DNA of 39,159 nucleotides from an uncultured Saprospiraceae bacterium (GTDB lineage Bacteria > Bacteroidota > Bacteroidia > Chitinophagales > Saprospiraceae), in contig CALLAE010000061.1 in assembly GCA_938002665.1 (NCBI GenBank), positions 1 through 39,159 of the forward strand, written 5' to 3'. The position numbers and the translations under genes are program-made. The first letter of the stretch is position 1; every line of letters begins with the position of its first letter. The notes below the pieces were generated by a model. The model worked only from the letters and a program-made list of their open reading frames with translations. It was not told the DNA's origin and did no database searches. Of the stretch, positions 2,262 through 15,469 are shown one piece after another.

Positions 2262-2975
2262 TTATTCTGTGACGACAATCTTGTCTAAATGGATGATATT
2301 TTCTTCTTTGTCAGAAATAGTCAAAATATAAATCCCTGAGGACAATTCTGCGGAATCTATCACCTTTACTTTATTAGATTCTAATTGGCCAATATAAATA
2401 ATGCTTCCAGACATATCACTCAATTTGAAATCGTAACTCGTATTTTCATTTTCCTCAATTACTAGATATATAGAGGACTGCTGCACGGGATTCGGATAAC
2501 AAGATATCGTTCTATTAAGAGCTGCTTTTCTAGATCGCTCTTCTAGAGACGGATCTGCAAAAGGTACTGTTCTTTCTAAGCGTTCGCCAGCTATTAAATA
2601 AAGTATAGTCCGCGGATAGGCATTCAATCTTCCCTCTTGGAATCCTGCATTCCTAAGAAACTGTAGTTGGGAAGGACTGACCTCAGTCCTTCCATTAGAA
2701 AGAAAATCTACATAGATTTTCTGAGCTTCTATATAATTAGACTCTTCCTGGCTGCTAGTCACAATAGCATTCAGTTCTGCTATCGCAACGTCATACTCAC
2801 TATATCTTATACTGATACTAGGCACAAAACTCCTGATATCAAATTCTGGTTGTGCCTTCATCAGATTCTTTAATTCTGTATGACTCATTTCAGTGTTTGC
2901 CTCCGCGGAATGAGCCAAGACCTTATCGCTCAATTGCTTGTACAAATCAACTTTTAATTGTGATACCGCGATCAT
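2262..2975 (-). CDS. T9SS sorting-domain protein body, cut off from its signal peptide by a frameshift
   Basis: 237 residues from the ATG at 2975. Residues ~1-140 are helical and polar with no recognised domain. Residues ~158-237 are a type A sorting domain (CYPNPVQQS, an LSDMSGS strand, final IHLDKIVVTE). A T9SS substrate needs a Sec signal, but this frame has none: upstream it is open only as far as a TAG at 2996-2994. The adjacent frame carries a perfect signal peptide (2983-3123) ending in TGA at 2985-2983. Skipping one base around 2986-2993 joins both into a normal ~285-residue cargo protein. I read this as one gene broken by a one-base indel, or a sequencing error. If real, the body would remain in the cytoplasm. 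Confidence 0.7.
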   Translation of the reverse strand: MIAVSQLKVDLYKQLSDKVLAHSAEANTEMSHTELKNLMKAQPEFDIRSFVPSISIRYSEYDVAIAELNAIVTSSQEESNYIEAQKIYVDFLSNGRTEVSPSQLQFLRNAGFQEGRLNAYPRTILYLIAGERLERTVPFADPSLEERSRKAALNRTISCYPNPVQQSSIYLVIEENENTSYDFKLSDMSGSIIYIGQLESNKVKVIDSAELSSGIYILTISDKEENIIHLDKIVVTE

Positions 2976-3126: not shown

Positions 3127-4197
3127 CTATCGATTTAAAAGTTCACATAATAAATTCCACTTTTCTCCTTCGAGCTGGCAAGGATCACAACCTTGGCACT
3201 CGCAACCATCATTATACTTATCGCCAACCGTCGCAGGATCGCCATCATCACAAGGAAGTGCCTCATGAATTATCTCACAGTTATATATATCAAAATAATC
3301 TCTGGTTCCTGAGCAGCCATCATCTACATCTGGAACTTCATTGACAACTATACAATTCTCAGCATCAAAGTAATCATAGGTTAGGTCACAGCCGTCATCA
3401 GGATCTGGAGGAACATTAGTTACAGAACAATCAGCATTGATGAGGTCCACAGTAAGAGGACAGCCATCGTTAGGATTTACATCTCCGCAGGGAATAGGTG
3501 TACCTATACATTCACAGTCTACTGTATATCTATCATTATATGTGTCAGGATCACCATCGTTACAAAAGTCTCCAGGACCGCCAGCTTGACTAGAGTCATC
3601 AGGCCAGCAATCATCTTCATCACAGACGCCATCTCCATCTGAGTCACCCAGACGGCAGCCTTCAGACCAGCCGACACAATTACAGTCTTCATCATAATAA
3701 CTATGATGGGTCAATGGATCACCATCATCACATTCATCTCCTGGGCCATAGCTCTGATTAGGGTCTTCAGGCCAGCAATCGTTCTCATCACAGATACCAT
3801 CACCGTCTGCATCTGGACCATCACAACAGGACTGTGTAACAAGATAGGTACAGTAGCTAGTTTCCTCTGCATTATTCATCGTCCAAGTAAATACTAATCC
3901 ATCTTCACTTTCACAGCAAGGGATAGTTAGACAAGATGAAGCATGGACTCCTGAACTACTGGACATAGCAGTACCATCATCAGCTGAGCAGGTCATACTG
4001 AAACTAGAATAATTCCAAGGCGCTGCACCTTGTCCATCATTACAAAGAGTCATAGAGCCATTACTGGCATTTATAACTCTAAGATTTACTGAACAAGGAT
4101 CAGAACCATCATTGGTAGGATTGAGTTGTGCCATAAAATCTTGACACAGCAATAAGCAGGCACCTGCAATAAGGTACCGAATGAACTTTTGATTCAT
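3127..4197 (-). CDS. Secreted Cys/Asp-rich repeat protein (thrombospondin type 3-like Ca-binding motifs)
   Basis: 356 residues. Signal peptide 1-24 (ends FMAQ). Residues ~25-125 form a Cys-containing domain with a CC pair. From ~128 two DxDGDGxCDExDCWPxD motifs (DADGDGICDENDCW and DSDGDGVCDEDDCW) resemble thrombospondin type 3 Ca-binding loops. They alternate with repeats of the form DDGDPxTxxDxYxxDCxC, which recur to the C-terminus. Such Asp/Cys repeats are common in Saprospiria surface proteins and probably bind calcium between disulfides. Unlike its neighbours it has no T9SS sorting domain and ends in a short Cys-containing tail (CDPCQLEGEKW). First gene of operon B, directly behind a conserved leader. 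Function unknown. Confidence 0.8.
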   Translation of the reverse strand: MNQKFIRYLIAGACLLLCQDFMAQLNPTNDGSDPCSVNLRVINASNGSMTLCNDGQGAAPWNYSSFSMTCSADDGTAMSSSSGVHASSCLTIPCCESEDGLVFTWTMNNAEETSYCTYLVTQSCCDGPDADGDGICDENDCWPEDPNQSYGPGDECDDGDPLTHHSYYDEDCNCVGWSEGCRLGDSDGDGVCDEDDCWPDDSSQAGGPGDFCNDGDPDTYNDRYTVDCECIGTPIPCGDVNPNDGCPLTVDLINADCSVTNVPPDPDDGCDLTYDYFDAENCIVVNEVPDVDDGCSGTRDYFDIYNCEIIHEALPCDDGDPATVGDKYNDGCECQGCDPCQLEGEKWNLLCELLNR

Positions 4198-4205
4198 AAC
4201 TTTTA

Positions 4206-4657
4206 AAGTTTTTAGGTCATCACCTCCTTTATCTCTGCGCCACGAGAGGAGGTTATAAAAATAATTCTGCGCATATGGGTTGAGCAGAAGAGAAGACCTA
4301 TCTTTGCAGCCTCTTTTTGTCGAGAGATCGAGGGTCTGCTACTGATACACCTGTACTGAGCGAACTCAGTGAGTCGAATGTATCAGCTATGTGGGCTCTC
4401 TTTTTTTTACCCAAACTTATATCTTACCCAGTTGCCACATTGACAGCTAGAGTCGCATTCCAGTCTTAAGAATATTAAAGCTATTAGGTTGTCACGTACT
4501 AAGGAAGCAGGTGAGCGGGAGGTTGTATTCTAAATCGTTAGTAATTTCAAAAAAAAAAAACCATTTCACCAAATCTTTCTATGTTTTAACATATAGAAGT
4601 TAGTTGTATTAGTTTTTTCTGATACATAAGATACTGTTAGTACGTTAGTTGAAATGA
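4206..4657 (-). promoter_or_regulatory. Conserved leader/promoter region, copy 1
   Basis: About 450 nt ending just before the ATG at 4197. It is near-identical to 9516-9933 upstream of the beta-helix gene, although the two coding sequences are unrelated. Near the gene, read on the minus strand, it holds AAAGGAGGTGATGACC, then a TTCTGC/GCAGAA hairpin (4264-4287), a C/T-rich stretch, and a stem whose apex carries a REP-like palindrome (4342-4386). A minus-strand -7 box TAAGTTTG lies at 4419-4412, giving a leader transcript of about 205 nt. The distal half contains the near-palindrome TTCTATGTTttAACATATAGAA. Which strand is transcribed is unresolved. Confidence 0.65.
4330..4408 (+). terminator. 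Terminator-like hairpin in leader copy 1, plus-strand polarity
   Basis: GAGGGTCTGC (4330-4339) pairs with GTGGGCTCTC (4391-4400) over ten positions if G-U pairs are allowed. The four wobble positions would be A-C mismatches in minus-strand RNA. Eight T residues follow (4401-4408). The loop is occupied by a palindrome, CTGATACA...TGTATCAG, with an inner ACTGAG/CTCAGT. It suggests a plus-strand transcript ends here, antisense to the cargo leader. In copy 2 the same stem carries a different apical palindrome. Confidence 0.5.
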
Positions 4658-5016
4658 ATGCCCCGCTTTATCCTTTTGTCAGAATTAGGATTAGTAGGAT
4701 TTGGGGATTATAGGATTCGTATCTGAGTATCACCTACCACTTTTGTGAAGAGAGGGTCAAAATCTCTATAGGAGATTTTGGGGTGAGTTTTAATACTAAC
4801 TTTCAACTCATCCCCGGCCCTTCTCTTACGAAGAGAAGGGAGCGCTACCCGCTCTGTCAACACCTACCCTCTTTTTCCAAGAGAGGGTCAAAATCTCCAT
4901 AGGAGATTTGTGGGGTGAGTTAAAGATTTACTTGATTTAACTCACAACGTATCATTAAAAAACTATACGTTATGAATCAGAATAGTATGCAATACGATAC
5001 TATGACTAAAACCAAC
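4658..5016. repeat. Island of REP-like palindromic repeats between the two cargo operons
   Basis: This gene-free stretch contains no convincing ORF. It holds two units of the two-hairpin family (4736-4791 and 4864-4920), each with GAGAGGGTCAAAATCTC..GGAGATTT and a GGGGTGAG tail, and a third hairpin CCCTTCTCTTacgAAGAGAAGGG at 4817-4840. Near 4685-4720 lies an AGGATTAGTAGGATTTGGGGATTATAGGATT degenerate direct repeat. The last 60 nt before the stop at 5017 show nothing distinctive. Confidence 0.6.
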
Positions 5017-6534
5017 CTATTCTACAACCACCACTCGCTTAGTCCATACCACCCTATCAGTACTATCATCAGCTATAAACTCTACAGAGTATATCGCTGA
5101 TGGCAACCCACCTAACGATAACTCTAGCTCTCCTATCAGAATCTCCACATTTTTATGCAGCACCACTTGCCCTTGCATGTCCACGACATACAACTGACCT
5201 CGCTTACTTTCAGGAATCTCAACTGTCACTGGACCTGTAGTCGGACTAGGATAGACTGTGAGCTCTCTGCGCCACCACACAGTCTCTCCTACGATACTGA
5301 CGATACTAGGGTCACACTTCTCTTCCTCATCTACACGGAAACGAGGGAAGTTAGGAAAGGAGCCTGTTGCAGAAATATAGGGTAGTCTTATACCTTGCTG
5401 TACCAGATCACAAGCGATGCCTTTTTCATCGGGCTTATTGATTACATGAAATGAATTACTACCACTCCCTGGTCGAATATAAATACGACAATCAGGGCCG
5501 AGTGCTGACTTAAAAAAACGTGTAGACAATGGATCCAAAACACCATTGTGCGCAGCTATAAATTCTAAACCATCCTCTAGTGGGTCTATATGCGTATCTA
5601 GCTGCCAAATACTATCACTCTTTATAAGGTATAAAAACTGCGAACTAGGACTCCACTCGCAGGTAGCAAACCACCAATTGACAGTATCTATTAGGTCAAT
5701 AGAACCAATGTGATCTAGGACACCTTCTGTTCTATCAAAGTCATACAATTGCAGTCCATCGAATTCATTAAAATAAGCGTACTTAGTTCCATCAGGAGAA
5801 AATCTAGAATCGCCTGAGGCACTAGCATTCCAATGATACGCAGGTCCAACATCTAATTTCTCAACAAAGCTAAAACCTTGCTCATCTATCTGAAATAGAT
5901 CAAAACCCTTTACCTTATCTGCAATAAGCACCCACCAATCTATACCATTAGAATGATTTATAGCAGATTGATAACCTGACAAATATTCATCTATATCGAT
6001 AGACCTGTTCTTGTAGATGACATCACCAAGACCATTATCCTCTGACATACTTATATAACTGTACAGCAAAGTATCAGCTATTATATTTTGTCCATTGGGA
6101 TGAAAGGAAATAATTTCATGAATAAGATAATACCCTTCCCTATTACTAGGATCAGGCAATATAATAACATCTTGTCTGCCAGGATATCCATTGCCGCAAT
6201 CGCCTAGCCATAAGATATCGAAAAATTCACCAGCATTGATACTATCTCCATTCGGCATGATCTGATGCAGCCGGTTAGCCACTGCACAACCATTGGTATA
6301 GAACAATAAATTGCCAGCTTCATCACAGATACTCGCATTATTCTGATCAAACTCCAGCTCTCCCTCTCTTTCCTGGACGGCGAAGGGTCGCACATTGAAA
6401 TCAAAAGCTGAAGCCTGAACGCCTTCCTTATTATCCTGATCTTTTCCAAAAGGCCAGTAATAGTCTCGTTTGTTTTGAGCTTGCATCGTAGACATGAGCA
6501 AACCCAACATAAATAATATGATTATTACTCTCAT
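5017..6534 (-). CDS. T9SS-exported beta-propeller-like protein
   Basis: 505 residues. Signal peptide 1-19 (ends MQAQ). The mature start (YYWPFGKDQ, then FDFNV and DQNNASICDEAGNLLFYTNGC) is characteristic of a large Saprospiria/Lewinella family of secreted proteins predicted to fold as WD40/TolB-like beta-propellers: note FSPDGTKYAYF near residue 250 and WSPSSQFLYLI near 295. A type A sorting domain covers residues ~425-505 (TVYPSPTTG, VVDMQGQ, final KRVVVVE). Second gene of operon A, 61 nt after the beta-helix gene with a strong hairpin between them. No enzymatic motif is visible; a binding or structural surface role is inferred. Confidence 0.85.
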   Translation of the reverse strand: MRVIIILFMLGLLMSTMQAQNKRDYYWPFGKDQDNKEGVQASAFDFNVRPFAVQEREGELEFDQNNASICDEAGNLLFYTNGCAVANRLHQIMPNGDSINAGEFFDILWLGDCGNGYPGRQDVIILPDPSNREGYYLIHEIISFHPNGQNIIADTLLYSYISMSEDNGLGDVIYKNRSIDIDEYLSGYQSAINHSNGIDWWVLIADKVKGFDLFQIDEQGFSFVEKLDVGPAYHWNASASGDSRFSPDGTKYAYFNEFDGLQLYDFDRTEGVLDHIGSIDLIDTVNWWFATCEWSPSSQFLYLIKSDSIWQLDTHIDPLEDGLEFIAAHNGVLDPLSTRFFKSALGPDCRIYIRPGSGSNSFHVINKPDEKGIACDLVQQGIRLPYISATGSFPNFPRFRVDEEEKCDPSIVSIVGETVWWRRELTVYPSPTTGPVTVEIPESKRGQLYVVDMQGQVVLHKNVEILIGELELSLGGLPSAIYSVEFIADDSTDRVVWTKRVVVVE

Positions 6535-6550
6535 ATATCCTCTTAATTAG

Positions 6551-6585
6551 AAAAGTAGATCGACAAATTATATTTGTCGATCTAC
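6551..6585 (-). terminator. Perfect 13-bp palindrome between the two genes of operon A
   Basis: GTAGATCGACAAA (6555-6567) and TTTGTCGATCTAC (6573-6585) form a perfect stem with a 5-nt loop. On the minus strand TTTTCTAATT follows. It can act as an intergenic terminator or an RNA-stabilising hairpin that sets the ratio of the beta-helix protein to the 505-residue protein. Confidence 0.6.
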
Positions 6586-6595
6586 ATGATAAATA

Positions 6596-9511
6596 TTAAT
6601 GTTGTACAGTAAACTTCTTTGTTATGGTCTCTCGGCTATCTACAGTTATAGTCATAAGGTACATACCATTTGCTATACCAACTAATGGTATAGAGATAAC
6701 AGCATCAGAACCATAGTGCTGATGACTTACCTGACGACCTTTCATATCCGTAACAGTTATATCTACCGTGTCGTAGTCCGCATCCCCCATACCTACCTGT
6801 ACTATATCTGACGCAGGCGATGGGAACAAGGTAATATTCCAATCCTTCGGAATTTCTACTATATTTCTTTGATCAATTTCTGAGCTATCGCAGTCATTGT
6901 TTTCATAATCATAGTAGGCTTGCGTATGCAAGAGACCCTTTGCCCATTCTACTACCTCTCCATATTCCTGAGGACAATAATCAGCTACTACCCTAAGTTC
7001 TGATATATCAGTATTAGATAATTTTTCTGTGGCTATATACTTTACTATCTTAGTATAAGTAGATTCATATAGCGGTTCCAGTACTATGTCTCCGCAAGGT
7101 GGAAATGTGCTAATTGTGTTTTCACCTTCACCAGAAAGCTGGTTGTATTGACTCATGGCGATTGACTTTACATTTGTCTCAGTATTAGAAGAAGATAATC
7201 CCTCTGTGCCAGACATAGCTTGCCTGAGTATAGCCTCTTGTGTTGCCAATTCTGTAAGACGGCACTCAGGCACACAATCAGGTCGGCTATTAGGGCCGTG
7301 AGTCGCATAATACCTTCCCAATAGTAGTCTGAGTTGCATCCAGTAATCGTCTGCATCTAAACTCGCTATCGCCTCAGAAAATTCTTCAGGAGTCATTATA
7401 CCATCGTAGCCGACATTGTTACTACATGGTAGCTCATTAAGTGATGGTCCATTCTGAGGATCAAAAAGGCCACCGTCATTATTTGGATCTACAAAAAGCT
7501 GTAGATTACCATTAGCTGGTTGGGTTTGGTCATATTCGAAACGACTAGCTTGAATATCAAAAGCACTAAGTCCTGGAGCTCTAGCTGCAGAACCTGATAC
7601 CCTGAATAAATTTTGATGATGGGGCTGTATTCCTATTACAGATTCTATATTGAGATCAGTCCCCCCATTGAGGAAGTTATTACAAGTAATCCATTGCTCT
7701 CGGCCACTAGCTGGTTCTATAGAGAGGCCTTGATATAAAGCATAGATGTCATTGTCATCATAAGTATTCCCTTCAGATGAATAATTTAGTATTCCATTAA
7801 GTGGATTATTGGATATGAGATTCTGTTCTACTGTGTTTCCAGATCCTCCGCTGATTACAATTCCATTGCCTGTGCTTGTAGCCTGGGTCGTATTATCCAC
7901 TACTTCACATCCATGCAGCGAGCCGACTCTTATAGAAGCTTGATGACCAGAACCGTAGATATAATTGTTCTCCAGCCTATGGTTGGCTGCAAAAAAAGTA
8001 TTGATACCATAAGCATTGGGTTCTGTCGCAACAACTTCTATGCTATTATCCCATATTTCTGAATTTTCATTCAGCACAAAGGAGGTCTGTATACCTATCT
8101 TTTCTGCTCTTATAGTATTGTCTTCAATATCTGCACCATTAGGCAAAGATAAGATGATAGCTCGTTTTCCAAATCTTGGCATATCTCCTGTGCCATTTGG
8201 TGTCATGGAAAGTCCTTGTCCAAACTTATTCCGTGTAATAATCACATCTCCTCCATTAGCGAATAGACCCCAATTAAAATAATCTATTTCATTATTTTCA
8301 ACATGCAATAAGCCCTTGGTAATTCTTGAGGTTATTGGTAACGTTGAAACAAATCGATTATTCTTAATGGTTGCTTCAGAACCTAACATATCTATCCCTT
8401 TAAGAACACCATGTAAAAAATAATTAGAATTATCTAGACTGCTTGCGCTTAAGTCTATGTCTTGACCATTAAGCACCCTTACTCCTACATCACATAAATC
8501 AAATATATTATTATCAAACTTTTCTACAGAGACAGATCCATTTAGTTCGATGGCTGCATATTCAGTAGTTGAGAAAGATTCAAAGAATTTAAAAGTACAG
8601 CTCTCTAAGCTAATAGAAGACCCAGACTCTGCTTTTATACCTTTCATTCCACCGCGGAAAATACAGTTTTCGAGTATTAATGTTGCCCCAGGCTCCAAGA
8701 TCATAGAGTCCCAGAAATTTGATTGCCATAATTGTCCACATGGAATGAAGTTATAATCCTTAAGATGAAGTGTCACACCTGACCTGACAGTAATTTCAGC
8801 TCCAGGTTGCATGTAACAGGTCCTTCTTATTCCAGATGTTACATTGTCTGTCCAGTCAACATCTACTATCATATTCTCGACATTAAAAATGACAGGCTTA
8901 AGATTGTCGATAAAAAAATCTTGTGTTGACAATGGTGTTGTAGCTGAAAAATTAGGTACAGTTAAGTAATTACTATAAGGCACCACTTCTGGTATAACAA
9001 GAATGTCTTTAGTTTGACAAACAGTATTATTGAATTTTAACTCTGCAATTATAAATTCTTCCTCAAGAACAACATATGAAGGATGTGGATCAGGTGCTCT
9101 GCCTGAAATGAAAATAAAAACATCAAAAACATTCCCAGATAAATCTGTTGGGAGTTCTAATTCTATTGTCATTATATTTCTCTCGGGATCATTCATATCT
9201 TGAGTCTCTGTAACATTTGTTACATTAGAACCAGTTACATTAATTCCATCTATATGCTCAAACGCGAGAGTATTATAACTAAAAGTTAAAGTAGCAACTT
9301 CATCTTGCAATAAGGCCCTGTATTCAAAATTGACGGTAAAAAATAGTCTGTAGTCGTTAAAACAGACATTAGATAATACATTATTGTCGCCTTCTCCTTC
9401 ACCAGTTAATTCCAAGGAATTATTAATAATCACAGGATTGCATTGACCATTTAGCTCACTACCAGATAACAATAAGACTACAAAGAGAAATCTAAATATT
9501 AAATTTTCCAT
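6596..9511 (-). CDS. T9SS-exported right-handed beta-helix protein
   Basis: 971 residues. Signal peptide 1-23. Residues ~25-190 look like a beta-sandwich, possibly cohesin-like (alternating strands, no Cys pairing pattern). Residues ~240-640 are a right-handed parallel beta-helix of NosD/pectate-lyase type: repeated turns such as IKNNRFV, VENNEID, IEDNTIRAEKIGIQ, LENNYIYGSG and GIVISGGSGNTVEQNLISNNPLNGI. Residues ~700-880 are helical with paired cysteines. A type A sorting domain ends the protein (FPSPASD, DMKGRQ, final KKFTVQH). Beta-helices of this kind bind or cleave polysaccharides, but no catalytic residues can be assigned. First gene of operon A, right behind leader copy 2. Confidence 0.85.
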   Translation of the reverse strand: MENLIFRFLFVVLLLSGSELNGQCNPVIINNSLELTGEGEGDNNVLSNVCFNDYRLFFTVNFEYRALLQDEVATLTFSYNTLAFEHIDGINVTGSNVTNVTETQDMNDPERNIMTIELELPTDLSGNVFDVFIFISGRAPDPHPSYVVLEEEFIIAELKFNNTVCQTKDILVIPEVVPYSNYLTVPNFSATTPLSTQDFFIDNLKPVIFNVENMIVDVDWTDNVTSGIRRTCYMQPGAEITVRSGVTLHLKDYNFIPCGQLWQSNFWDSMILEPGATLILENCIFRGGMKGIKAESGSSISLESCTFKFFESFSTTEYAAIELNGSVSVEKFDNNIFDLCDVGVRVLNGQDIDLSASSLDNSNYFLHGVLKGIDMLGSEATIKNNRFVSTLPITSRITKGLLHVENNEIDYFNWGLFANGGDVIITRNKFGQGLSMTPNGTGDMPRFGKRAIILSLPNGADIEDNTIRAEKIGIQTSFVLNENSEIWDNSIEVVATEPNAYGINTFFAANHRLENNYIYGSGHQASIRVGSLHGCEVVDNTTQATSTGNGIVISGGSGNTVEQNLISNNPLNGILNYSSEGNTYDDNDIYALYQGLSIEPASGREQWITCNNFLNGGTDLNIESVIGIQPHHQNLFRVSGSAARAPGLSAFDIQASRFEYDQTQPANGNLQLFVDPNNDGGLFDPQNGPSLNELPCSNNVGYDGIMTPEEFSEAIASLDADDYWMQLRLLLGRYYATHGPNSRPDCVPECRLTELATQEAILRQAMSGTEGLSSSNTETNVKSIAMSQYNQLSGEGENTISTFPPCGDIVLEPLYESTYTKIVKYIATEKLSNTDISELRVVADYCPQEYGEVVEWAKGLLHTQAYYDYENNDCDSSEIDQRNIVEIPKDWNITLFPSPASDIVQVGMGDADYDTVDITVTDMKGRQVSHQHYGSDAVISIPLVGIANGMYLMTITVDSRETITKKFTVQH

Positions 9512-9515
9512 AAAA

Positions 9516-9933
9516 AAGTTTTTAGGTCATCACCCCCTTTATCTCTGCGCCACGAGAGGAGGTTATAAAAATAATTCTGCGCTTATGGGTTGAGCAGAAG
9601 AGAAGACCTATCTTTGCAGCCTCTTTTAGCGATGAGATGGAGGGTCTGCTTCCGCCACGGGCGGATACGTGGGCTCTCTTTGTTTTTACCCATACTTATA
9701 TCTTACCCAGTTGCCACATTGACAGCTAGAGTCGCATTCCAGTCTTAAGAATTATTAAAGCTATTAGGTTGTCACGTACTAAGCAAGCAGGTGAGCGGGA
9801 GGTTGTATTCTAAATCGTTAGTAATTTCAAAAAAAACCATTTCACCAAATCATTCTATGTTTTAACATATAGAAGTTAGTTGTATTAGTTTTTTCTGATA
9901 CATAAGGTTCTGGTAGTAAGTTAGTTGGAGTGA
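9516..9933 (-). promoter_or_regulatory. Conserved leader/promoter region, copy 2
   Basis: The sequence matches 4206-4657 almost base for base apart from small indels, an altered segment around 9627-9640, and a swapped apical palindrome. It ends a few bases before the ATG at 9511. Shared elements are the CACCYCCTTTATCTCTGCGCC segment, the TTCTGC/GCAGAA hairpin (9574-9597), a TGGGT/ACCCA long-range pairing (9585-9589 with 9688-9692), the GTTGTCACGTACTAAG block, and the TTCTATGTTttAACATATAGAA near-palindrome. The -7-like box is TAAGTATG (9698-9691), one base off consensus. Confidence 0.65.
9640..9687 (+). terminator. Terminator-like hairpin in leader copy 2, plus-strand polarity
   Basis: GAGGGTCTGC (9640-9649) pairs with GTGGGCTCTC (9669-9678), including four G-U pairs, followed by TTTGTTTTT. 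The apex is the palindrome TCCGCCacgGGCGGA (9651-9665), unrelated to the apical palindrome of copy 1, while the lower stem is unchanged. Confidence 0.5.
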
Positions 9934-10386
9934 AAATAGTATGTCTCCGAAATTTTAAAACTAACTCAAGAAGAGAGTTTGATAAATGTTCTCCTCTATC
10001 CAATTAGAACACCTATCCTCTCTTTCCAAGTGAAGGTCAAAATCTTCAAAGAAGATTTGAGGGTGAGTATCCACAGGTGCTTAGGTATCCACACTTGATA
10101 TCTCACCAAGATTCTGTCTTAAAGCAGTTAGAAAGCTACCCTCCCTACCTCCTTTGTCTGAACTATGATTTTTAAGATTTCCAGATTTACATGATTCCTT
10201 CCTACAAATCCTCTTTCGTCTCAGCTTGTAGCTGAGATGCAATAAGATTGCAACATATAAAATAGCCCTTCGGGTCTGCCCGAATCCCTATAGTTGTGGG
10301 TACCACTAATCACCTCTCTTTGTAAGAGAGGTCAGAATCTTTGGAAAATGATTCTGGGTGAATTGAGGTTATGGGATGGGAAAGCT
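9934..10386. repeat. Palindromic repeat island, including right copy of the flanking direct repeat
   Basis: No gene is visible. Two-hairpin units occur at 10009-10058 (diverged) and 10310-10360; the latter is part of the 10321-10386 copy of the repeat found at 1-66. Other palindromes are CTCAGCttgtaGCTGAG (10217-10233) followed by ATGCAATAAGATTGCA, and CCCTTCGGGtctGCCCGAA near 10266. Similar short palindromes are typical of Bacteroidota intergenic regions; no RAYT-type transposase is present here. Confidence 0.6.
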
Positions 10387-13525: not shown

Positions 13526-15469
13526 CTAATTGATCACCAACTTTTTGTAAAACCTGTTTTTTCCACTAGTAACTTCTAGGATATATAGACCGGCATTAAG
13601 GTCTTCAACTCCTACTCGCGATCCAGATTCTAAGCCTCTTATTGATTTAACTAAAACACCATTTCTGTTTATAATTCTCAGTTCGCTATTGTCAGTAGTG
13701 GCGTTTTCCATCGTGACTTCTATATAATCCGTCGCAGGATTAGGGAAAACACCTAGCTGAGCAAAGTCTAGGTTCTCCGTACTAGAGGTTCCTGGCATCA
13801 GTACTGCATCTATCACATGCACCACACCATTATCTGTTTCTATATCAGCTACAGTAACCATTGCTTGATCTATAAAGACACCATCAGCAGTAATAGTTAT
13901 ATCCACACTTTTACCATTTATTGTCGCTACCTTTTGTCCATCAGAGAGATCAGTACTTCTTGCTACTCCTGCTACTGCATGAAATAATAAGATGTCAGTG
14001 AGAGCCCCTTGTGGATCTGCTAGTAAATCGTCTACCGTACCAGCAGGCAATGCTGCAAAGGCTGCATCCGTCGGTGCAAAAACTGTAAATGGACCTACTC
14101 CGCTCAGCACACCAGCCAAGCCTGCAGCTCCTACCGCAGCCTCTAGTGTCGTATGATCATCACTATTAACTACCACGTCTACTACTGTAGTTCTTGATGG
14201 CAATAAGACTGCATCCAATACATGTACTACTCCATTATCCGTTTCTATATCTGCAACTGTTACTTGAGCATTGTCTATGTAGACACCATTATCATTTATG
14301 GTAACTACTATATCTTTTCCATTAATGGTTGTAGCAAACTGTCCATTGCTCAGGTCTGTACTCTTTACTTCACCTGCCACTGCATGGTACAATAATATGT
14401 CTGTAAGTGGACCCTGCGGATCTGCTAGTAAATCATCTACCGTACCATCAGGCAATGCCGCAAAGGCTGCATCCGTCGGTGCAAAAACTGTAAAAGGACC
14501 TACTCCACTCAGCACACCAGCCAAGCCCGCTGCACCCACAGCAGCCTCTAATGTCGTGTGGTCATCACTATTAGCTACTACGTCTACTACTGTTGTTCTT
14601 GAAGGCAATAAAACTGCATCTAATACATGGACTATTCCATTATCCGTTTCTATATCTGCAACTGTTACTTGAGCATTGTCTATGTAGATACCGTTATCAT
14701 TTACGGTGACTACTATATCTTTTCCATTTATGGTTGTGGCAAACTGTCCATTGCTAAGGTCTGTACTCTTTACTTCACCTGCCACTGCATGGTACAATAA
14801 TATCTGAGTCAGTGCACCCTGCGGATCTGCTAGTAAATCATCTATTGTACCATCAGGCAATGCCGCAAAGGCTGCATCCGTCGGTGCAAATACTGTAAAA
14901 GGTCCTACTCCACTCAGCACGCCAGCTAGGCCTGCTGCACCTACTGCTGCTTCTAAAGTCGTGTGGTCGTCACTGTTAACAACCACATCGACTACAGTTG
15001 ATCGGGATGGTAACAGAACAGCGTCTATTACATGTACCACTCCGTTATCAGTTGCTATATCTGCAACTGTTACTTTTGCATTATTGATGTATACACCATC
15101 GTCATTAATCGTTACAGCTATATCTTTACCGTTGACGGTAGTTGCAAGTTGGCCATTACTTAGATCACCACTTCTGACATCTGCGGCTAGGGCATGATAT
15201 AACAATATATCTGTCAATTCACTCTGTGGTCCATCCACTAATTGTTGTAAAGTTCCCGGTGGAAGCGCCTCAAAAGCTGCATCAGTAGGAGCAAACAAGG
15301 TAAAAGGTCCATCACCGCTAAGAGTACCTTCTAACCCGACAGCAAGGACTGCTGTTTCTAGGATGGTATGGTCTGGACTATTTACAACGACATCTACTAC
15401 GGTGGTCTGTCCGTAGAGGAACATTGGGAGAATTATAAATGGTAGTATTTGTTGTAGAAATTTTTTCAT
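13526..15469 (-). CDS. T9SS-exported protein with four fasciclin (FAS1) domains
   Basis: 647 residues. Signal peptide 1-21 (ends MFLYGQ). Four FAS1 domains of ~134 residues each (about 22-156, 157-290, 291-424, 425-560), each with the H1 box GPFTVFAPTDAAFAALP and the C-terminal box VHVIDAVLLPS. A type A sorting domain follows (VFPNPATDY, final KKLVIN). FAS1 proteins mediate adhesion to matrix, cells or polymers; here it would be displayed or released by T9SS. Domains 2-4 are nearly identical in protein and in DNA, including silent sites, which points to recent tandem duplication or gene conversion; domain 1 is more diverged. Monocistronic with its own terminator. Confidence 0.95.
   Translation of the reverse strand: MKKFLQQILPFIILPMFLYGQTTVVDVVVNSPDHTILETAVLAVGLEGTLSGDGPFTLFAPTDAAFEALPPGTLQQLVDGPQSELTDILLYHALAADVRSGDLSNGQLATTVNGKDIAVTINDDGVYINNAKVTVADIATDNGVVHVIDAVLLPSRSTVVDVVVNSDDHTTLEAAVGAAGLAGVLSGVGPFTVFAPTDAAFAALPDGTIDDLLADPQGALTQILLYHAVAGEVKSTDLSNGQFATTINGKDIVVTVNDNGIYIDNAQVTVADIETDNGIVHVLDAVLLPSRTTVVDVVANSDDHTTLEAAVGAAGLAGVLSGVGPFTVFAPTDAAFAALPDGTVDDLLADPQGPLTDILLYHAVAGEVKSTDLSNGQFATTINGKDIVVTINDNGVYIDNAQVTVADIETDNGVVHVLDAVLLPSRTTVVDVVVNSDDHTTLEAAVGAAGLAGVLSGVGPFTVFAPTDAAFAALPAGTVDDLLADPQGALTDILLFHAVAGVARSTDLSDGQKVATINGKSVDITITADGVFIDQAMVTVADIETDNGVVHVIDAVLMPGTSSTENLDFAQLGVFPNPATDYIEVTMENATTDNSELRIINRNGVLVKSIRGLESGSRVGVEDLNAGLYILEVTSGKNRFYKKLVIN

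Follow-up and report, generated by a model that had tools for sequence, protein, structure and literature searches.

Two copies of a repeated element before exported-protein genes of a Saprospiraceae bacterium form a candidate two-strand regulatory RNA module

The window analysed here is a stretch of 39,159 nucleotides (positions 1 to 39,159, forward strand, of contig CALLAE010000061.1, assembly GCA_938002665.1) from an uncultured Saprospiraceae bacterium. It carries two copies, A and B, of a repeated block that precedes genes for exported proteins on the minus strand. The reading to which we incline, with a confidence slightly above even, takes each copy for a two-strand regulatory RNA module in which a folded mRNA leader would be paired with a small antisense RNA from the opposite strand. 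Over query bases 23-476 the copies are 87% identical (E 9.6e-160), ungapped stretches reaching 93-99%, and on the minus strand the common block stops a few bases 5' of the ATG at 4197 and of the ATG at 9511. The proteins downstream, of 356 and 971 amino acids, are unrelated (BLASTP, best E 0.69). A first-pass annotation of the window had described near-identical blocks ending close to the start codons of two unrelated cargo genes, as is observed. The features of the gene strand are as follows.

4205-4658, minus strand (gene sense): copy A of the repeated block, by sequence comparison
9515-9934, minus strand: copy B of the repeated block, by sequence comparison
4276-4413, minus strand: predicted sense-leader three-way junction of copy A, closed by helix P1 (fold and P1 covariation)
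9584-9694, minus strand: predicted sense-leader three-way junction of copy B, closed by P1 (fold and P1 covariation)
4355-4374, minus strand: palindromic insert in the apical stem, copy A only (genome pattern search)
3127-4197, minus strand: exported protein behind A, 356 amino acids, signal-peptide-like start, without Pfam match
2262-2975, minus strand: second gene behind A, with a type IX secretion system (T9SS) type A sorting domain
6596-9511, minus strand: T9SS cargo protein behind B, 971 amino acids, beta-helix and sorting domain
5017-6534, minus strand: second gene behind B, 505 amino acids, sorting domain barely over the cut-off

The part common to different genera is a core of ~110-140 nt (about 4276-4413 and 9584-9694). 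The remainder of the ~440-nt block gave BLASTN matches only in this genome and its genus, no systematic search having been made elsewhere. The leader of about 420-450 nt proposed at first is thus repeated within the window, but what crosses genera is the core. The proposal that a peripheral loop has been replaced is borne out by the apical stem of copy A, where the 20-nt palindrome-bearing stretch has no other occurrence at up to two mismatches in the genome, which is 87.5% complete; stretches resembling it are present in sister genomes.

Searches of the genome and its relatives, the check suggested with the first-pass annotation, yielded many further copies. In this genome (3.76 Mb, 180 contigs) there are five more cores, two on contig C80 and one each on C88, C83 and C172. 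Core matches occur in 4 of the 14 genomes of the genus. A sense covariance model matched 38 of 398 sampled Saprospiraceae genomes, from 18 of 112 genera (E ≤0.01); two of these (G087 and G360) rest on single weak matches resembling chance, so that 36 of the 38 are better supported. A model of the opposite strand matched 35 of the 398 genomes, in 17 of the 112 genera (E ≤0.001). Outside the family no match was obtained, samples of 395 genomes each from the phylum and from the class giving only two in-family genomes. Where a sample exceeded 40 genomes, scoring was confined to 9-19 first-look candidates per genome; the copy counts are therefore lower bounds and the absence outside the family is no proof. 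A core pattern was present in 15 records, 7 labelled Saprospiraceae, 6 'Bacteroidetes bacterium' and 2 (L083, Bacteroidales; L090, Ruminococcus) that were taken as chance, with no match to sense model R2 at E ≤0.1. The cores of four of the Saprospiraceae records are identical to those of two genomes of the genus, G010 and G012. Viral contigs gave no exact match to one core pattern. The comparisons below use 63 distinct core copies from 16 genera, which are not independent of each other; the set leaves out L036 and L058 (weak), 12 duplicate rows, L056 (below the cut-off) and six weak sense-model matches.

How the copies of this genome arose was approached by comparing element likeness with gene likeness. 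Before unrelated genes, likeness reaches 1.00 for B and the C88 copy, 0.98 for the C80 pair and 0.92 for A and B, while the gene behind B and its sister-genome homolog, at 31% amino-acid identity, have elements of likeness 0.77, and the gene behind A and locus L035, at 55%, have elements of 0.85. A counter-case is another homolog of the gene behind A (L041, 62% identity over 141 amino acids), whose element reaches 0.91, and in two sister genomes (G010, G012) copies of the same genome are no more alike (0.74-0.87). We read the likeness of A and B as the trace of a recent event, copying or conversion, that involved only the leader; this is seen in this genome and is not a general rule. The first-pass annotation had offered selection for an RNA or promoter function, or very recent copying; A and B do appear recently copied, and a leader-strand helix also covaries strongly, as described below.

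A single recent segmental duplication fails to explain 63 copies in 16 genera. That the element is a mobile repeat (of the miniature inverted-repeat transposable element or repetitive extragenic palindromic type), or a plain recent duplication with no function, would fit the near-identical copies within this genome, the patchy occurrence and the palindrome inserted in copy A. We hold it to be very improbable, since divergent copies occur in 16 genera, nearly always positioned before exported genes, and the flanking arms differ between copies yet stay complementary, unlike the fixed terminal repeats of such elements; sequence-conserved terminal inverted repeats were not found. An additional fragment on contig C159 (L007, G000:C159, about 1-1373) holds an upstream leader part without the core. 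By eye, this part adjoins a remnant like the 3' end of the T9SS gene 96-2201, a sign of cassette recombination.

The association with exported proteins was quantified over the 63 copies. An automatic rule found a signal-peptide-like start next after 53 of them, in four cases (L063, L059, L043, L112) more than 250 nt away; for L063 and L059 closer short exported frames are visible. Inspection of the other 10 by eye added nine exported starts, giving 62/63 in all (all but L060); several of these nine by-eye calls concern frames interrupted within the signal peptide or shortly behind it. For comparison, the identical signal rule with a different picking of open reading frames (ORFs) gave 40/95 among neighbouring genes. 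The opposite-strand search contributed nine copies beyond the 63 (three of them also in the sense search), and in 7 of the 8 that could be assessed an exported start lies 48-104 nt off; four of the six weak sense-model matches beyond the 63 also have an exported-protein start.

As to the kind of protein, Pfam placed a T9SS sorting domain above the cut-off in 13 of 19 larger downstream proteins, with beta-helix and metallopeptidase domains recurring. Over 29 downstream proteins in total, the Pfam results were sorting, beta-helix, metallopeptidase and PKD domains, a few weak matches, or nothing, and SusC was not among them. By a crude rule 19 of the 63 first genes are lipoprotein-like; at least three of the 19 have T9SS sorting domains, and 10 others of them scanned with Pfam showed none. 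In the window, neither Pfam nor NCBIfam detected a T9SS sorting domain in the first gene behind A (3127-4197); its successor carries one, as does the first gene behind B. To call both loci T9SS cargo, as had been done, therefore holds for B and only for the second gene of A, and "T9SS cargo leader" is too narrow a name. In four loci (L047, L099, L107, L031) the frame is interrupted within the part coding for the signal peptide, at short repeats made of TTCTG units or runs of T, by phase variation, decay or assembly error. A GGGAG...CTCCC hairpin, seen by eye between element and ATG in several genera (L049, L050, L070, L076, L113, L172, L173, L181), may be a second leader domain.

On the gene strand the core is predicted to fold into a three-way junction closed by the long helix P1, the arms of which vary between copies and stay complementary. 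This was measured by comparing the pairing energy of each arm with its own partner and with the partners of other genera, the inner arms being named, in gene-sense order, L, R1, R3 and R2. P1 with its flanks pairs at -17.3 kcal/mol with its own arms and at -10.2 kcal/mol with other-genus arms (z -16.7; 16/16 genera), against z values of +0.7, -0.9 and -2.3 for three control segment pairs. Of the inner arm pairs, L:R2 and R1:R3 show covariation whichever strand is read (z -5.5 to -7.0; two control pairs, +1.0 and -1.1). In strand preference R1:R3 is mildly sense (z -2.8) and L:R2 has z -1.9; the whole of P1 also leans to sense (z -2.5). In the sense covariance model 18/22 pairs show both-side changes (32 sequences, in an alignment fitted to the model). 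The proposal of a structured element, for which a covariance model had been suggested, is in this respect sustained. The flanks of P1 lie outside the RNA predicted on the opposite strand, so a longer RNA, most simply the mRNA leader, must keep them complementary. The sense junction is supported by P1 covariation; no alternative fold was shown on that strand. Two other approaches gave little: G-U and A-C cells of the fitted alignment were almost equally frequent (77 vs 76) and decided nothing, which is why the matched-partner test was used, and RNAalifold on a 77-row alignment recovered the apical hairpin alone.

A sense leader alone, a riboswitch-like or protein-binding 5' untranslated region whose opposite-strand signals are by-products of a conserved junction, would account for the long covarying P1, for the both-side changes in the sense model and for the constant position before exported genes. 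With the first models, R1 and R2, it was the sole account entertained, and it was dropped as such when the core proved to fold better on the opposite strand in 57/63 copies, an excess that is partly a matter of composition (median z vs shuffles -1.7 vs -2.1). We regard it as unlikely, for two reasons that concern the opposite strand: the R1-L stem is stable and covaries only there and is followed by a T-rich tail, and the letters of the junction read TAnnTTTG, in which only nn is free to vary. The elements of that strand, in the window, are these.

4299-4306, plus strand: -7 promoter box of the predicted antisense RNA in copy A, TATCTTTG
9609-9616, plus strand: -7 promoter box of the predicted antisense RNA in copy B, TATCTTTG
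4311-4408, plus strand: small antisense RNA predicted for copy A (98 nt, its start deduced from the box)
9621-9686, plus strand: small antisense RNA predicted for copy B (66 nt)
4330-4339, plus strand: copy A terminator 5' arm GAGGGTCTGC
4391-4408, plus strand: copy A terminator 3' arm GTGGGCTCTC and T8
9640-9649, plus strand: copy B terminator 5' arm GAGGGTCTGC
9669-9686, plus strand: copy B terminator 3' arm GTGGGCTCTC and T-rich tail

On the opposite strand TAnnTTTG is followed by a short hairpin and then by GAGGGUCUGC; next come an apical hairpin with a variable, covarying stem, GUGGGCUCUC and finally the T-rich tail. The box TAnnTTTG, of the Bacteroidota -7 type, is exact in 45/63 copies and 14/16 genera. 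Since the box is placed at -12 to -5 in the portions of PMC9723704 that deal with it, the antisense starts are predicted at 4311 and 9621; over the copies the predicted RNA would be ~61-99 nt long and end in a stem and T-rich tail. Upstream of the box, TTG at a spacing of 19-20 is found in 10/63 copies and 6 genera, where about 2 copies are expected. The corresponding -33 motif of Bacteroides is TTTG and is described as not identifiable in F. johnsoniae (PMC7366714, in excerpt).

The terminator arms R1:L covary on the opposite strand only (z -6.2, compared with -0.9 in sense), and their strand preference is strongly opposite (z 5.7, 14/16 genera). When 32 copies from 12 genera, selected by us out of the 63, are placed in a plain alignment, 96.9% of the cells of the terminator stem are paired and 6/10 pairs have both-side changes. 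For the whole opposite-strand structure 7/500 shuffles reached the observed number of both-side-change pairs, 22/500 the number of pair types and 0 the other measures. The 10 nt after GTGGGCT contain a mean of 7.3 T. The minimum-energy folds of both copies contain a 5' hairpin of the small RNA, which is weak in B and absent from the B centroid; in the 32 copies 76.2% of its cells are paired. With its conserved -7 box and a stem like that of an intrinsic terminator, the opposite strand of the core seems also to be a small antisense RNA gene. The first-pass annotation was right in seeing a repeated, structured leader and missed these opposite-strand signals.

Two further explanations were weighed. 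In one, the opposite strand would hold a single attenuator, whose terminator would face the three-way junction as a competing antiterminator; each of the three arm pairings shows covariation on that strand, and, as junction and terminator arms overlap, the two structures would be mutually exclusive there. What makes this improbable to us is that no consistent gene lies downstream in that direction (of 52 copies with sufficient sequence, 18 have a divergent nearest upstream ORF, 28 one of the same orientation and 6 none) and that P1 and R1:R3 show a preference for the sense strand. In the other, the element would be a stand-alone family of trans-acting small RNAs resembling FopS, with the exported gene as a co-regulated or hitch-hiking neighbour. 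An own promoter box and terminator, and several paralogs per genome, some of them nearly identical in this one, speak for such a family, which we rate somewhat above the attenuator and still as unlikely, because nearly all copies examined have a fixed orientation and a short distance to the exported gene, the P1 arms beyond the small RNA covary, and no pairing signal to start regions was seen. In that last test, the small RNA paired with the start region of its own gene no better than with start regions from other genera (z -0.2 over 52 loci); accessibility did not enter the duplex energies, and the test is blind to a seed common to all.

This pairing result also weighs against the two-strand module, and so do several others. 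The box is inexact in 18/63 copies, although 6 of the 18, some of them shifted, fit TAnnTTGY, a related motif reported in excerpts on F. psychrophilum (PMC9723704). TTG at spacing 19-20 is missing in 53/63 copies, including A and B, which have TTG only at spacing 16. A generic terminator scan, limited to loops of ≤8 nt, missed the stem of copy A and gave an unrelated one inside the gene; the stem it reported for copy B overlaps the predicted one but is different and shorter. P1 and R1:R3 favour the sense strand only modestly, and outer P1 alone not at all (z -1.1). In the genus, 10/14 genomes lack a core match. Finally, no sigma-A-type promoter was clearly enriched on the leader strand relative to 100 dinucleotide shuffles (largest excess 8 vs 4.6, standard deviation 2.0), which also tells against the cassette promoter suggested at first. 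An apparent excess of TAnnTTTG upstream in sense (10 vs 1 copies) came from a first scan with one plain shuffle and was gone under the 100 dinucleotide shuffles.

In the two-strand module that we nevertheless prefer, the leader of the exported-protein mRNA would fold into the three-way junction, with the long helix closing. On the opposite strand a sigma-A-type promoter, its -7 box inside the junction, would start an RNA of ~65 nt (98 nt in A) that runs away from the gene and ends at the intrinsic terminator. The small RNA complements half of the leader junction and should therefore pair with the leader, probably first at the conserved hairpin loops, opening the junction. Pairing would change, and most likely lower, expression of the exported protein. 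Sequence comparison supports the copies, the gene association, both covarying helix sets, the promoter box and the terminator-like stem; from these we infer the production of both RNAs, their pairing and the direction of control. More tentatively, and with doubt outweighing belief, the copies might together constitute a protein-export RNA regulon of the Saprospiraceae, a dual-strand element common to exported-protein genes of many genera, with a switchable leader and a controlling antisense RNA encoded by the same short piece of DNA; after recent copying of leaders within a genome, as in this one, a single antisense RNA may act on several loci.

Structured sense leaders with an internal antisense promoter and loop-first pairing are familiar from CopA/CopT, RNAI/RNAII and RNA-OUT, which control replication or transposition, not chromosomal genes for exported proteins. 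Within the Bacteroidota, the nearest likeness is to DonS and the DonS-like cis-antisense RNAs of Bacteroides polysaccharide utilization loci, described in the portions of PMC7366714 at hand as short divergent antisense RNAs beside an outer-surface protein gene, with several loci per genome. The predicted layout agrees with a short RNA divergent beside the 5' end of its target in orientation, distance and length (61-99 nt here, 78-128 nt for the DonS type; PMC7366714, in excerpt). The targets differ, however: here they are T9SS cargo and lipoprotein genes, and the susC target that defines DonS was not found in the 29 proteins scanned. The present element moreover has sequence and structure common to several genera, and its sense leader is itself a covarying junction. 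FopS of B. thetaiotaomicron is similar in having many paralogs of ~65-70 nt with outer-membrane-protein targets, a canonical sigma-ABfr promoter and a Rho-independent terminator; according to the same excerpts (PMC11697453) it binds the start region of susC mRNAs through a single-stranded 5' seed; here a 5' hairpin (weak in B) is predicted, and no specific start-region pairing was seen in a test that would miss a seed common to all. Flavo-1, whose matches are reported in sense or antisense positions (PMC9723704, in excerpt), and other Bacteroidota motifs of Rfam are alike in being structured RNAs whose role is open. E-value searches of the window and 10 related loci gave no Rfam match at the gathering score, and at the element in those 10 loci none at E up to 1. 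A sub-threshold match over the copy A antisense RNA, to Atu_Ti3 (4294-4343, plus strand, 21.6 bits against a gathering score of 50, E 0.45), was taken as chance.

The layout is thus one known from DonS-type antisense RNAs, and what appears new is its placement before T9SS cargo and lipoprotein genes. A narrow search of the open-licence PubMed Central literature found no RNA-level regulator of T9SS cargo; one paper there, PMC12119571, is on a P. gingivalis RNA-binding protein. The element offers a candidate for such a regulator with specific coordinates, its antisense RNA would be directly testable in each carrier, and it is a case in which a single short stretch is under distinct but overlapping constraints on RNA structure on its two strands.

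Several minor features of the window were also recorded. The block contains a homopolymer tract of 12 nt in A (4549-4560) and 8 nt in B (9829-9836) that could be hypermutable, and a T- or A-run upstream of the core was seen by eye in about 10/13 sequences of the genus. At 4219-4230 on the minus strand, AAAGGAGGTGAT is a long Shine-Dalgarno-like stretch upstream of ATG 4197, with GGGGG in B; it is unusual for Bacteroidota and rather distant from the ATG for an ordinary Shine-Dalgarno sequence. No tRNA lies in the window. Two families of dispersed intergenic repeats occupy 2-66, 4737-4802, 4868-4933, 10017-10082 and 10322-10386, and palindromic stretches like them were noticed by eye near the C159 fragment as well. 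At 13526-15469 lies a gene for a four-domain fasciclin T9SS protein with internal repeats of 405 bp.

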